Shown piece after piece: positions 26,250 through 30,665 of a stretch of 64,000 bases of DNA. The notes below the pieces were generated by a model that saw nothing but the letters and a program-made list of their open reading frames with translations, ran no database searches and had not been told where the DNA came from. This DNA is from Pelagerythrobacter rhizovicinus (lineage in GTDB: Bacteria > Pseudomonadota > Alphaproteobacteria > Sphingomonadales > Sphingomonadaceae). How positions within the stretch are numbered: the stretch's first letter is position 1; each line of letters starts with the position of its first letter. A program made the position numbers and the translations under genes. Location: positions 744,001 to 808,000 of the forward strand of contig NZ_SDPV01000002.1 in the NCBI RefSeq assembly GCF_004135625.1, read 5' to 3'.

Positions 26250-27806
26250 ATGACGATTGCCGATCCCGCCGCCGCGCTCGCCGAACCCTACGGCTCGTTC
26301 TCCGACATTCTCGCCGCCTGGGCGGGCAGACAGCCAGAGGCGGTAGCGTTACGCGACGAGCGCGGCGAACTGACCTGGGGCGAACTCGCCGATCGGGTGG
26401 AGCGCATCGCCGCCAAGCTGCAGACCAGTGGGCTCGAACGCGGCCAGGCGGTCGCGATTCTGGGCCTTTCGAGCATTCCCTACGCGCTCGTATTCCTTGC
26501 TGCGGTGCGGGCGGGCGGAGTGGCCGCGCCGCTGACGACGAGCGCCAGCCGCGAGCAGCTCGAAGGAACGGCGCGTGACAGCGGTGCGCAGCACCTGTTC
26601 CTCGACCGCGCGAAGCTGGACGAACTGGGCGACGACTTCCTGCCGCATCTCGAACGGATCGTTCTCGATGAAGAGATTGACCGCTGGATGGCACCGCCGC
26701 GGACTCGCGCGACCCCCTTCGCGCCCGAGCCGGGCGAACCCTTCAACATCATCTATTCGAGCGGCACGACGGGCGTTCCGAAAGGCATCGTCCATTCGCA
26801 CCAGATGCGCTGGCGGCAGTTCGCCTCGACCGCGGCCTCGTATCGGGAAAGCAGGCTGGAGGTGCGCGCGATCGCCTCGACTCCGCTCTATTCGAACACC
26901 ACGATGGTCGCCTTCCTGCCGCCGCTGCTGGCCGGCGGCTCGGTGCGCGTTATGGGCAAGTTCTCCACCCGCGCCTGGCTGGAAGGGGCGCAGGCCGATC
27001 GCTCCACGGTGACCATGCTCGTGCCGGTGCAGTATCAGCGGCTGATGGACGAGCCGCGGTTGGGCGATTTCGACCTTTCCTCGCTGGCGCTGAAATACTG
27101 CACCTCCGCCCCCTTCCCCGTACCGCTCAAGCGCGAGGTGCTGCGCCGGATGCCGGGCGCGCTGATCGAGATCTACTCGATGACCGAAGGCGGCGGCGTC
27201 TGCCTGCTCGCCTGCCACGAGTTCCCCGACAAGCTGCACACCGTCGGCCGCCCCGCGCCGGGCAGCGAGCTCAAGGTGCTGGATGACGAGGATAACGAGG
27301 TGCCAGCCGGCACCACCGGAAATCTGGTGGGGCGGAGCCAAACGATGATGAGCGGCTACAAGAACCAGCCGGAGAAGACCCGCGAAGGTTACTGGACCGA
27401 TCCTGCTACCGGAGAGGTGTGGCAGCGCATGGGCGACATCGGCCGCGTCGACGCCGACGGTTTCGTCGAACTCGTCGGGCGGGCGAAGGACATGATCATC
27501 TCGGGCGGATTCAACATCTACCCGTCCGATCTCGAAGCGGCGCTGGAGAAGGAGCCGGGCGTTGCGGAAGCGGCGGTCGTCGGCGTGGCCAGCCGCCGCT
27601 GGGGCGAGAGCCCGGTCGGCTTCGTCTGCCTTGCAGATGATGCACCTGCCGCAGACGAGATCCTCGCTTCGGTCAACGCACGGCTGGGCAAGACGCAGCG
27701 CCTCGCCGCGCTTCACGCCGTCGACGAGATGCCGCGCAGCCATATCGGCAAGCTGCTGAAGACCGATCTGCGGGCGATGGCGGAGGAGCTGGGCGGAATC
27801 GACTGA
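26250..27806 (+). CDS. AMP-forming acyl-CoA synthetase (class I adenylate-forming)
   Basis: 518 residues. Core motifs: the P-loop IIYSSGTTGVPKGIVHSH (about 167-184), A5 IYSMTEGGG, A7 WQRMGDIGRVDADGFVELVGRAKDMIISGGFNIYPSDLE and the catalytic C-terminal lysine in HIGKLLKTDLR. It activates a carboxylic acid as acyl-AMP and transfers it to CoA. The overall type is that of medium/long-chain or aromatic acid ligases; the substrate cannot be fixed. It stands alone in a single-gene unit after the transporter gene. Confidence 0.88.
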   Translation: MTIADPAAALAEPYGSFSDILAAWAGRQPEAVALRDERGELTWGELADRVERIAAKLQTSGLERGQAVAILGLSSIPYALVFLAAVRAGGVAAPLTTSASREQLEGTARDSGAQHLFLDRAKLDELGDDFLPHLERIVLDEEIDRWMAPPRTRATPFAPEPGEPFNIIYSSGTTGVPKGIVHSHQMRWRQFASTAASYRESRLEVRAIASTPLYSNTTMVAFLPPLLAGGSVRVMGKFSTRAWLEGAQADRSTVTMLVPVQYQRLMDEPRLGDFDLSSLALKYCTSAPFPVPLKREVLRRMPGALIEIYSMTEGGGVCLLACHEFPDKLHTVGRPAPGSELKVLDDEDNEVPAGTTGNLVGRSQTMMSGYKNQPEKTREGYWTDPATGEVWQRMGDIGRVDADGFVELVGRAKDMIISGGFNIYPSDLEAALEKEPGVAEAAVVGVASRRWGESPVGFVCLADDAPAADEILASVNARLGKTQRLAALHAVDEMPRSHIGKLLKTDLRAMAEELGGID

Positions 27807-27828
27807 TCAGCCGCTCGCGCTCGCGTTT

Positions 27829-27875
27829 GAGACGCGGCCGCCGAGGGGGAGAGGACTGAGGGGCGGCCGCGTCTC
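27829..27875. other. Perfect 14-bp inverted repeat (strong hairpin)
   Basis: GAGACGCGGCCGCC (27829-27842) pairs perfectly with GGCGGCCGCGTCTC (27862-27875) around a 19-base purine-rich loop. It lies between the convergent acyl-CoA synthetase gene and the 27-residue peptide gene, 25 bases beyond the stop of the latter. Neither side has a T tract. It may act as a bidirectional, Rho-aided terminator or RNA-stabilising structure. Confidence 0.6.
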
Positions 27876-27899
27876 GCTCGCTGCCATTCCTCGTCAGGC

Positions 27900-27983
27900 T
27901 CAGGCGATCGCAGCGCCGAGCATGAGGCTGCTCATCGAAGCAGCCGCGAGGAAGGCCAGGAAGTGCGATGCTGTCGTGCGCAT
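27900..27983 (-). CDS. 27-residue hydrophobic small protein
   Basis: A short gene not detectable by length alone. ATG 27983 is preceded by a perfect AGGAG (27995-27991 on the minus strand) with seven-base spacing. The product begins MRTTASHFLAFLAAASMS and ends MLGAAIA, which reads as a single hydrophobic helix or signal-peptide-like segment. A 14-bp hairpin lies just downstream and two inverted repeats lie upstream. It could be a small membrane protein or a leader peptide. I do not recognise a named family. Confidence 0.55.
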   Translation of the reverse strand: MRTTASHFLAFLAAASMSSLMLGAAIA

Positions 27984-28072
27984 GGCGTGTCTCCTGAATG
28001 AGGCCGGGGGAAGGGGGGAGAGGAGAGAGGAACCTTCCGCCCGGCGCGATCCGGGAAATAATCTTTCGCACG

Positions 28073-28120
28073 ACTTTTCACAAATGAGAAAAGTGCGTCA
28101 TACGTTGCATAATACGCAAC
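28073..28120. promoter_or_regulatory. AT-rich region with two inverted repeats upstream of the small gene
   Basis: ACTTTTC (28073-28079) and GAAAAGT (28088-28094) form one inverted repeat. GTTGC (28104-28108) and GCAAC (28116-28120) form a second, ten bases away. Both sit in an unusually AT-rich stretch between the small gene (minus strand) and the methyltransferase gene (minus strand), so they are candidate operator/promoter elements for the 27-residue peptide. No regulator is identifiable. Confidence 0.35.
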
Positions 28121-28177
28121 ATATTCCTGAGAGCATCATGTGAATTTCCGCCAATTTACGTACAGTGGTGCAAACTA

Positions 28178-28195
28178 TGCAGCAATGATGCTGCA
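28178..28195 (-). terminator. Hairpin at the 3' end of the methyltransferase gene
   Basis: TGCAGCA (28178-28184) and TGCTGCA (28189-28195) pair perfectly around ATGA. It starts two bases after the methyltransferase stop codon (28198-28200 on the minus strand). There is no U tract, so termination efficiency is doubtful. Confidence 0.4.
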
Positions 28196-28197
28196 CG

Positions 28198-29010
28198 TCA
28201 CTGCGATGCCGCAGACCCGGCGAAACGGCTGATGATATCGGGAGGCAGCGGCCCGCGTTTCTTCGCGACGAGCACGAAATATTCGAGCCATTCGCCGTCG
28301 ATCGAGAGACGATGACGATAGCGCTCAAGCAGATGCAGCTCGACGAGATCGTGATCGAGCAACGCCTTGACGAGCGCCGCGAAGCCGCCCTTGTCGGCCT
28401 TCTGCAGGAAATCGGTCTTGATGTTGAACGCCAGCCATCCATCTTCGGCGATCGTCTCCATCGCCGTGACGAAGGCGGCGGCCGGAATGTCGTCGAAACC
28501 GAGCGCAGCCACGCAGGTCAGCGCATCGAGCCGCCATTCTTCCAGTGCGCTACTGGTCTCCGCATCGGGGTTCGTCATGTCGGCGACGAAGTATTCGTCG
28601 TACCCCGCCGGCCGGTCTCGCAGCGCCGCCTCCCGCGCGCTCTCGATGATGTCGAGCCCGACCAGGCGCGCGACGCCGAATTTCTTCAGTTCGTCGGAAA
28701 CGATCCCGTTGCCGGCACCGAGATCGAGCACCCGCAGAGTCTCCACACTCTCCCCCGCATGCCGCACGGCCCCCGCCAGCCGCGAGACCACCACGGCAGG
28801 GCTGGTGCAACGCAGGCGTTCGTAGAACAGTTGTTCGTAGAGCCCGGGCCGATCGTAGATCGCTGCGTAGTCGTGGAACTTGATCCGTTTGTCCTCGCCA
28901 TCTTCTATCAGGTAGAAGAAGGCCTGGTTCTGCTGGAGATCCCGTCCGCTCTCGCGCGGGAAACGGATGACGTGCTGGCTGAATGCGGCTCCGTGATCGG
29001 CGATCGGTAT
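28198..29010 (-). CDS. Class I SAM-dependent methyltransferase with apparent ATA start
   Basis: The SAM-binding motif [16 protein letters not shown], motif II GLDIIE.A and FVADMTNPD show a Rossmann methyltransferase. The first canonical start (GTG 28794) would cut off a well-conserved-looking N-terminal part that continues in frame upstream: [24 protein letters not shown] and [19 protein letters not shown]. The frame is open to a TAG at about 29035 and contains no ATG, GTG or TTG. The most natural start is ATA at 29008-29010 (followed by PIADHGAAF), with an AGAAGG-type SD just upstream. That gives 270 residues. Substrate unknown. Divergent from guaA. Confidence 0.7.
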
Positions 29011-29090: not shown

Positions 29091-30665
29091 ATGGACCCGC
29101 AGCATCTCCCCGATTCCATTCTCATCGTTGACTTCGGCAGTCAGGTGACCCAGTTGATCGCGCGCCGGGTGCGCGAGGCCGGCGTCTACTCCGAAATTGC
29201 GCCGTTCACCGAGGCGGAGGATGCATTCCATCGCTTGAAGCCCAAGGGGATCATCCTCTCCGGCTCGCCGGCCGGGGTGCCGGAGGAAGGCAGCCCGCGC
29301 GCGCCTCAGGTCCTGTTCGACAGCGGATTGCCGATCCTCGGCATCTGTTACGGCCAGCAGGTCATGACGCATCAGCTCGGCGGCGAGGTCCGTCCCGGGC
29401 ACGAGACGGGCGAAGGCGGCGAGTTCGGCCGCGCCTTTCTCACCGTGACCGAGGACTGCGCCCTGTTCGAAGGCCTGTGGCAGGTCGGCGAGCGCCACCA
29501 GGTGTGGATGAGCCACGGCGACAAGGTCACCCGCTTCGCCGACGGCTTCAAGATCGTCGCCGTCAGCGACGGAGCGCCCTTCGCCGTCATCGCCGACGAA
29601 GAGCGCAAGTATTACGGCACCCAGTTCCATCCGGAAGTCGTCCACACCCCCGATGGCGCACGCCTGCTCGCCAATTTCGTACGCCACGTCTGCGGTCTCG
29701 CCGGCGACTGGACGATGGCCGAGTTCCGCAGGACCAAAATCGAGGAGATCCGAGCGCAGGTCGGCGATGGCAAGGTCATCTGCGGCCTTTCCGGCGGTGT
29801 CGACAGCGCGGTGGCCGCAGTGCTGATCCACGAGGCGATCGGCGAGCAACTCACCTGTGTCTTCGTCGATCATGGCCTGATGCGAATGAACGAGGCGGAA
29901 CAGGTCGTCACGCTGTTCCGCGATCACTACAACATCCCGCTCGTCCACGTCGACGCGGAGGACATGTTCCTGACCGGCCTCGCCGGGGTCAGCGACCCGG
30001 AAGCGAAGCGCAAGTTCATCGGCAAGGCCTTCATCGACCTGTTCGAAGCCGAGGCGAAGAAGATCGGCGGTGCCGATTTTCTCGCGCAAGGCACGCTCTA
30101 TCCGGACGTGATCGAAAGCGTCAGCTTCACCGGCGGACCGTCGGTGACGATCAAGAGCCATCACAACGTCGGCGGCCTGCCCGAGCGGATGAACATGGCG
30201 CTGGTCGAACCCCTGCGCGAACTGTTCAAGGACGAAGTCCGCGTGCTGGGCCGCGAGTTGGGGCTGCCCGAGGTCTTCGTCGGCCGGCATCCCTTCCCCG
30301 GGCCCGGCCTTGCCATCCGCATTCCCGGCGAAGTGACCAAGGAGCGTTGCGACATCCTGCGCAAGGCCGACGCGATCTATCTCGAGGAGATCCGCGCCGC
30401 CGGCCTCTACGACGCGATCTGGCAGGCCTTCGCCGTGTTGCTGCCGGTCAAGACCGTTGGCGTGATGGGCGACGGCCGCACCTACGACAGCGTCTGCGGC
30501 CTGCGCGCGGTGACCAGCACCGATGGAATGACCGCAGACGTCTACCCCTTCGACGCACAGTTCCTCACCCGCGTCGCCACGCGCATCGTGAACGAGGTAA
30601 AGGGCATCAACCGGGTGGTCTACGACTACACCTCGAAACCCCCCGGCACGATCGAATGGGAATGA
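29091..30665 (+). CDS. guaA: GMP synthase (glutamine-hydrolysing)
   Basis: 524 residues from ATG 29091; the in-frame extension upstream overlaps the divergent methyltransferase and is not real. The class I glutamine amidotransferase domain has its nucleophile in GICYGQQ (C86) and H/E in QFHPEVVH. The PP-loop [10 protein letters not shown] marks the ATP pyrophosphatase domain, and the C-terminal dimerisation domain ends KPPGTIEWE. It converts XMP to GMP using glutamine and ATP. The gene appears to be a single transcription unit. Confidence 0.97.

Follow-up and report, generated by a model that had tools for sequence, protein, structure and literature searches.

A small gene in the window, the 64,000-nucleotide stretch of Pelagerythrobacter rhizovicinus DNA analysed here, probably specifies a dual-function transcript. 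Judging from sequence comparison, it would encode a small membrane peptide and at the same time act as a small RNA (sRNA) of the anti-Shine-Dalgarno type, controlled together with the sRNA gene mmgR. Its features and their surroundings are as follows.

28104..28120, minus strand: GTTGC-N7-GCAAC palindrome, upstream half of a composite promoter, with its centre near -64 relative to the inferred start
28073..28094, minus strand: ACTTTTCTCATTTGTGAAAAGT, containing TTTTCTCATTTG (28081-28092), downstream half of the composite promoter, which would overlap the -35 region
28055..28067, minus strand: GAAAGATTATTTC, probable -10 region, invariant in seven sequences of the genus
28003..28045, minus strand: 5' leader hairpin with CU-rich loop (z -3.02 and covariation)
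27991..27995, minus strand: Shine-Dalgarno sequence AGGAG, 7 nt before the ATG
27900..27983, minus strand: class A peptide gene, 27 residues, stop codon included (translation of the reading frame and family conservation)
27829..27875, minus strand: 3' hairpin, perfect 14-bp stem with a 19-nt loop that carries GUCCUCUCCCCC (fold and covariation)
28198 to ~28998, minus strand: methyltransferase gene, in the window genome an insertion that separates guaA from the peptide gene
29091..30665, plus strand: guaA (GMP synthase), divergent, the synteny anchor (neighbourhood comparison)

The peptide, MRTTASHFLAFLAAASMSSLMLGAAIA, is read on the minus strand from ATG at 27983-27981 to the stop codon at 27902-27900. 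The 27-residue reading frame with AGGAG at seven-nucleotide spacing, from which the original prediction started, was thereby confirmed, and a Shine-Dalgarno-like motif is found at all 61 homologous loci described below. Relatives had been proposed as the place to check the gene. It occurs once per genome, always intact, in all seven genomes of the genus, with pooled dN/dS of approximately 0.11 (over pairs that are not independent), and third codon positions make up 14 of the 17 variable columns of the within-genus alignment. Frameshifts or loss in close relatives, named beforehand as what would refute the prediction, do not occur within the genus; certain other genera do show them and nevertheless keep the RNA.

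The single peptide used as query (E 0.1) matched 19 of 199 genomes of the family. At E 1, a profile of 19 peptides had matches in 223 of the family's 397 genomes, those above ~1e-3 mostly looking like chance. Sixty matches were retained, including two in genome G300 and the weakest one in G342 (E 0.00108), and form together with the window locus the set of 61 loci. Peptide length is 26-28 codons at every locus and 27 codons at 46. All 56 distinct peptides share A14, and at least 90% of them have S18; arginine occupies position 2 in 36 of 42 27-mers. Mean hydropathy from residue 7 to the end is 1.81, and a charged residue past residue 6 is present in 10 of the 56. The peptide thus has the single hydrophobic span and the short positive N-terminus of a small membrane protein, membrane location being predicted from the sequence, and A14 and S18 contribute to an AAxxSG face on the hydrophobic helix. 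The C-terminal AIA invites a reading as signal peptide, which was rejected; position 27 varies (A, V, I, L, M, T), so that a signal-peptidase site is unlikely.

Comparison of the 56 distinct class A peptides with Pfam and NCBIfam gave sub-threshold matches only, for example DUF4516 in five of them (best E 0.0095). A search across the class (E 0.01) gave matches in 5 of 289 genomes. One of these is the window's own genome and the other four matches are partial (15-19 positions) and were treated as chance, so no credible class A match was obtained in the 288 other genomes of the class, three of which belong to the same family. On these comparisons the peptide represents a real conserved gene family. 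This membrane-peptide family is absent from Pfam and NCBIfam, and the 27-residue peptide is missed by gene catalogues. By its conservation it also qualifies as the short reading frame expected of a dual-function RNA, and it is presumably translated.

Neighbourhood of the gene is preserved as well. Divergent guaA lies upstream within 4 kb at 51 of the 61 loci, gyrB lies downstream on the same strand at 46, and at least one of the two accompanies the peptide gene at 58. The locus is therefore, as far as synteny tells, old and positionally fixed. The methyltransferase gene of the window has no match at the other 60 peptide loci.

These neighbours bear on two other explanations. The gene had been proposed as a regulated small membrane protein or, alternatively, a leader peptide with a structured 3' end. 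The former part holds: start codon, Shine-Dalgarno sequence, length, residues, promoter repeats and 3' stem of a regulated small hydrophobic protein are all conserved. A leader peptide serving as attenuator of a downstream gene is suggested by the short reading frame followed by a strong hairpin, and at 10 of the 61 loci gyrB is indeed the next gene on the same strand. However, the 61 loci have no constant co-oriented downstream gene that could be attenuated (the next gene is a convergent CoA ligase at 26 of them, including the window), the peptide contains no run of regulatory codons, and its residues are under selection along the whole length. We regard this function as extremely improbable.

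Hardly better is the case for a type I toxin, a short hydrophobic peptide with structured mRNA that is silenced by antisense RNA. Known toxins of this type are of similar length and hydrophobicity to the class A peptide, and one promoter-like site is present on the opposite strand (plus strand, 28084-28113). Toxin-antitoxin loci are typically mobile, though, in contrast to the guaA/gyrB synteny seen here, and the peptide gene is single-copy in nearly all genomes (G300 with its two copies excepted). A toxin is thus very improbable.

Returning to the dual-function transcript, we consider its RNA part. All 14 pairs of the perfect stem that had been noticed downstream of the gene were verified (arms 27829-27842 and 27862-27875), and local folding gives -39.2 kcal/mol (z -2.66). 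Changes on both sides are observed in 7 of the 14 pairs, a count reached by none of 500 shuffles; the underlying alignment comprises 16 of 25 CU-type loci, the remainder being near-duplicates or having a different or hard-to-align hairpin. No T run follows the stem on either strand, so it is no textbook intrinsic terminator of the Rho-independent kind that characterises the alpha-R8 sRNAs.

The hairpin at 28003-28045 and the CU-rich loops of both hairpins were overlooked by the original prediction, as were the promoter common to the peptide gene and the mmgR sRNA and the survival of the RNA without the peptide, both treated below. The leader contains a 27-nt pyrimidine run (28006-28032) with the sequence UCCUCUCCC, which recurs in the loop of the 3' hairpin. 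No other run of 16 or more occurs on either strand of the window. In the 5' hairpin, two-sided change affects 7 of 12 pairs, a count that 9 of 500 shuffles attain as well, and the two-sided cells number 21, which none of the 500 attains. This alignment comprises 18 of the 25 CU-type loci, near-duplicates and different or hard-to-align hairpins again being left out. The whole predicted transcript of 228 nt is more stable than any of 200 shuffles (z -5.32).

Leader pyrimidine runs of at least 11 are found at 24 of the 61 loci, compared with 151 of 12788 segments of the window (1.2%) that reach this length. At the other 37 loci runs do not exceed 7, so a large part of the family has the peptide and no CU loops in the leader. 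In the 25 loci that we selected as CU-type, CTCTCCC is present at 21 and exact TCCTCTCC at 13; the respective counts for the 36 other loci are 3 and 0. TCCTCTCC is also the core of all 25 mmgR copies, these being the 25 of 28 loci examined that fitted the mmgR pattern used, and the two loops of the window RNA both contain it.

The window RNA itself is not a member of the Rfam alpha-R8 family (RF00519: suhB, mmgR, alpha-R8). Rfam detected no family at gathering score in the window, and the RF00519 model gave no match to 27780-28200 at E values up to 5. Weak matches of the same segment to unrelated families (E 0.03-4) were disregarded.

The two inverted repeats that had been anticipated upstream of the gene do exist, as GTTGC-N7-GCAAC (28104-28120) and ACTTTTC..GAAAAGT (28073-28094). 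They are offset by exactly 28 nt, a distance kept in relatives. The resulting 40-bp pattern is found with at most four mismatches upstream of 53 of the 61 peptide genes and in none of 1220 shuffled upstream regions. With at most three mismatches it occurs in 305 of 397 genomes of the family, a reversed control matching in about 24 among the matches listed. The window's own genome has exactly two such matches and no control match; from their fit to the pattern, these presumably are the peptide locus and the mmgR locus L054. All ten promoter loci that were scanned (L054 and nine others) score above the Rfam gathering threshold for RF00519, L054 with 57.8 bits. Since promoter loci match this family, the peptide gene has its control region in common with an sRNA gene. 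A pattern scan of contigs proved too loose, returning at least 120 loci, mostly unrelated.

The mmgR/suhB copy of the window's genome occupies 1500-1620 of L054 (G000:C2:1256258, plus strand) and is divergent from a CoA-transferase-like gene. At another locus (L295), two mmgR-like units form a tandem pair, each with its own TTCGCA(C/T)TTGCACAA promoter.

Sinorhizobium meliloti mmgR is described, in the available parts of PMC8401924 and PMC12542648, as repressed by AniA/PhaR and activated by NtrC, the latter effect being covered by PMC8401924. The window genome does contain a PhaR homologue, and inspection by eye finds PhaR-like GTGCTGCAGTGCACA in the L054 mmgR promoter and none in the peptide promoter; PhaR-like TGCAGTGCA lies near the -10 region of L054 mmgR. 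PhaR/AniA was rejected as the common regulator, as its core given in the accessible text of PMC12542648 (e.g. TTGTGCACTGCACAA) differs from GTTGC-N7-GCAAC.

RNA and peptide are separable in relatives. At 15 loci the peptide reading frame is absent or decayed and promoter and CU loops are kept, with CTCTCC present at 14 of them; Rfam analysis of eight of the 15 yielded nothing relevant. Thirty family genomes, selected because their peptide match was absent or weak, include nine that retain the promoter by guaA, five of these with a CU-loop RNA and no peptide reading frame. A further 20 promoter loci include ten without an intact frame (ORF-less or decayed) that retain pyrimidine runs. Because these 20 were drawn from the 40-bp promoter matches and not at random, the 15 ORF-less loci give no estimate of frequency. 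In genus g73, decayed reading frames of three species align to intact ones of three others, promoter and both hairpins being retained. In three genomes of genus g37 the two parts are split: a peptide gene without composite promoter is directly followed by a complete promoter with CU-loop RNA, after which there is neither a class A nor a class B peptide (the second class is described below). As relatives carry both parts, either one, or the parts split, natural separation-of-function mutants exist.

These separated forms help to weigh two single-function explanations. The gene might be an ordinary one for a small membrane protein, with a 5' CU hairpin that masks or exposes its own Shine-Dalgarno sequence and a 3' hairpin that ends or protects the mRNA. 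Strong coding conservation agrees with this, and so do the 37 of 61 loci at which the peptide lacks a long leader pyrimidine run and the complementarity of the window loop to the peptide's Shine-Dalgarno region (UCUCCU can pair with AGGAGA). Yet CU hairpins persist at the 15 loci with no intact frame to control, the CU-loop RNA is a separate unit in one genus, the 3' loop carries the motif even though it follows the reading frame, and free folding of the leader leaves the CU loop open. We therefore hold an ordinary gene to be rather unlikely, although the CU loops could partly serve the peptide's own Shine-Dalgarno sequence.

At the opposite extreme, the locus might be a pure CU-loop sRNA whose reading frame is a passenger, its translation serving just to shield the RNA or to load it. 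The 15 loci that keep RNA and no intact frame are in accord with that, as is the promoter common with an sRNA gene. It is nevertheless quite improbable in view of the purifying selection on residues, the strict length of 26-28 codons, the Shine-Dalgarno motif at 61 of 61 loci and the 37 loci that retain the peptide but have no CU loop in the leader.

We thus favour a dual-function transcript as the most economical account of these observations; it might work as follows. One RNA of about 220 nt would yield two products. The first would be the single-span membrane peptide of 27 residues, with a positive N-terminus followed by a hydrophobic stretch, on which the small residues of AAxxSG form a face that would favour helix packing. 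The second would be the RNA itself, whose two hairpins expose CU-rich loops (UCCUCUCCC); like alpha-R8 sRNAs such as SisA, it could use these to pair with the Shine-Dalgarno regions of other mRNAs. Peptide and RNA would be switched on together with mmgR, whose composite promoter is nearly identical. A single activator that binds GTTGC-N7-GCAAC near -64 in response to some signal would presumably serve both promoters. Since the switch is common with a regulatory RNA, one small gene may act both as peptide and as RNA regulator.

Possible targets were looked up in the window's own genome, where eight perfect 9-nt complements of UCCUCUCCC lie next to an ATG. Four, with the match at the Shine-Dalgarno sequence, precede plausible genes whose products all have signal-like N-termini. 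Named from sequence, these are a GH3 glycosidase, a cytochrome c, a TonB-dependent receptor and a GH92-like protein; as candidate targets of the CU loops they are leads only. The other four sites look like chance.

Further genes are found behind the same promoter. A second, unrelated peptide class (class B, ~27 residues, of KRVxxxYxxxAxxYPMPxxW type, e.g. MTAFAKRVVELYVRGAARYPMPFIWTL) occurs at loci L244, L076, L080, L087, L099, L309-L311, L317, L323 and L324, sometimes directly after class A. Six class B peptides (four and two) were compared with Pfam and NCBIfam and matched no family. In genus g69 (L076, L087, L099), four composite promoters stand in tandem over ~1.2 kb next to guaA, the first followed by a class A peptide and the third by a class B peptide. 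UrcA-family genes also follow the promoter, and both that were compared (L309, L311) match TIGR04433. Additional UrcA-family loci were recognised by eye (L310, L248, L301, L318, L323, L324).

Tentatively, the 40-bp promoter might define an undescribed family-wide regulon of very small genes, comprising mmgR, class A and class B peptides, UrcA-family proteins and CU-loop RNAs. Its modules would be combined, lost, split and arrayed independently, with dual-function RNAs forming and dissolving within single genera; this is a possibility to which we assign somewhat less than even weight.

Dual-function RNAs and CU-loop sRNAs are already known kinds. The portion of the open-licence PMC literature that was searched contained no description of this locus or its peptide family, nor of a promoter common with mmgR or of two parts that are lost or split independently. 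The present analysis adds a peptide family that is conserved by guaA-gyrB in dozens of genomes and tied to a widespread sRNA, and relatives with separated parts allow asking how dual-function RNAs arise.

Nearest known kin are the alpha-R8 sRNAs (RF00519 suhB; MmgR of S. meliloti, SisA-D of Caulobacter). The likeness consists in the composite promoter, which is common to both in this bacterial family, and in the CU-rich anti-Shine-Dalgarno core UCCUCUCC, a defining trait that the window RNA possesses. Caulobacter SisA pairs with its target leader through a related CU 10-mer, according to the part of PMC12559287 available. On the other hand, the window RNA lacks the RF00519 sequence-structure match, it has two hairpin loops in place of one single-stranded core, and it carries a reading frame. 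The same part of PMC12559287 reports no common promoter motif for the four Caulobacter siblings, so a common promoter is not a general rule.

In regulation, the closest resemblance is to the VtlR/LsrB regulon. There, one LysR-type activator serves AbcR sRNAs together with a small hypothetical protein gene, as given in the accessible sections of PMC7486931 and PMC8844928. The T-N11-A geometry of LysR-type sites fits GTTGC-N7-GCAAC, and so does its place upstream of -35. The VtlR box, GCAT-N3-TG-N3-T in the same sections (PMC7486931, PMC8844928), is unlike the motif conserved here when compared by eye, and VtlR/LsrB itself was rejected as the regulator. From the geometry, the place near -64 and this likeness, a LysR-type activator is our guess, made by analogy.

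CcaF1-CcsR1-4 of Rhodobacter sphaeroides likewise combine, in the descriptions available, a small protein gene with CU-loop sRNAs in an alphaproteobacterium. The loops of CcsR1-4 carry a CU motif, and CcaF1 is larger than the 27-residue peptide. Those partial descriptions report CcaF1 as an RNA-binding protein, in contrast to the reading frame here, which specifies a hydrophobic peptide and lies between two CU-loop hairpins. Finally, dual-function sRNAs of the SgrS/SgrT type unite a short reading frame and a base-pairing part on one transcript, as does the transcript proposed here. Unlike in SgrS/SgrT, relatives of the present locus have lost or split off the two parts independently of one another.
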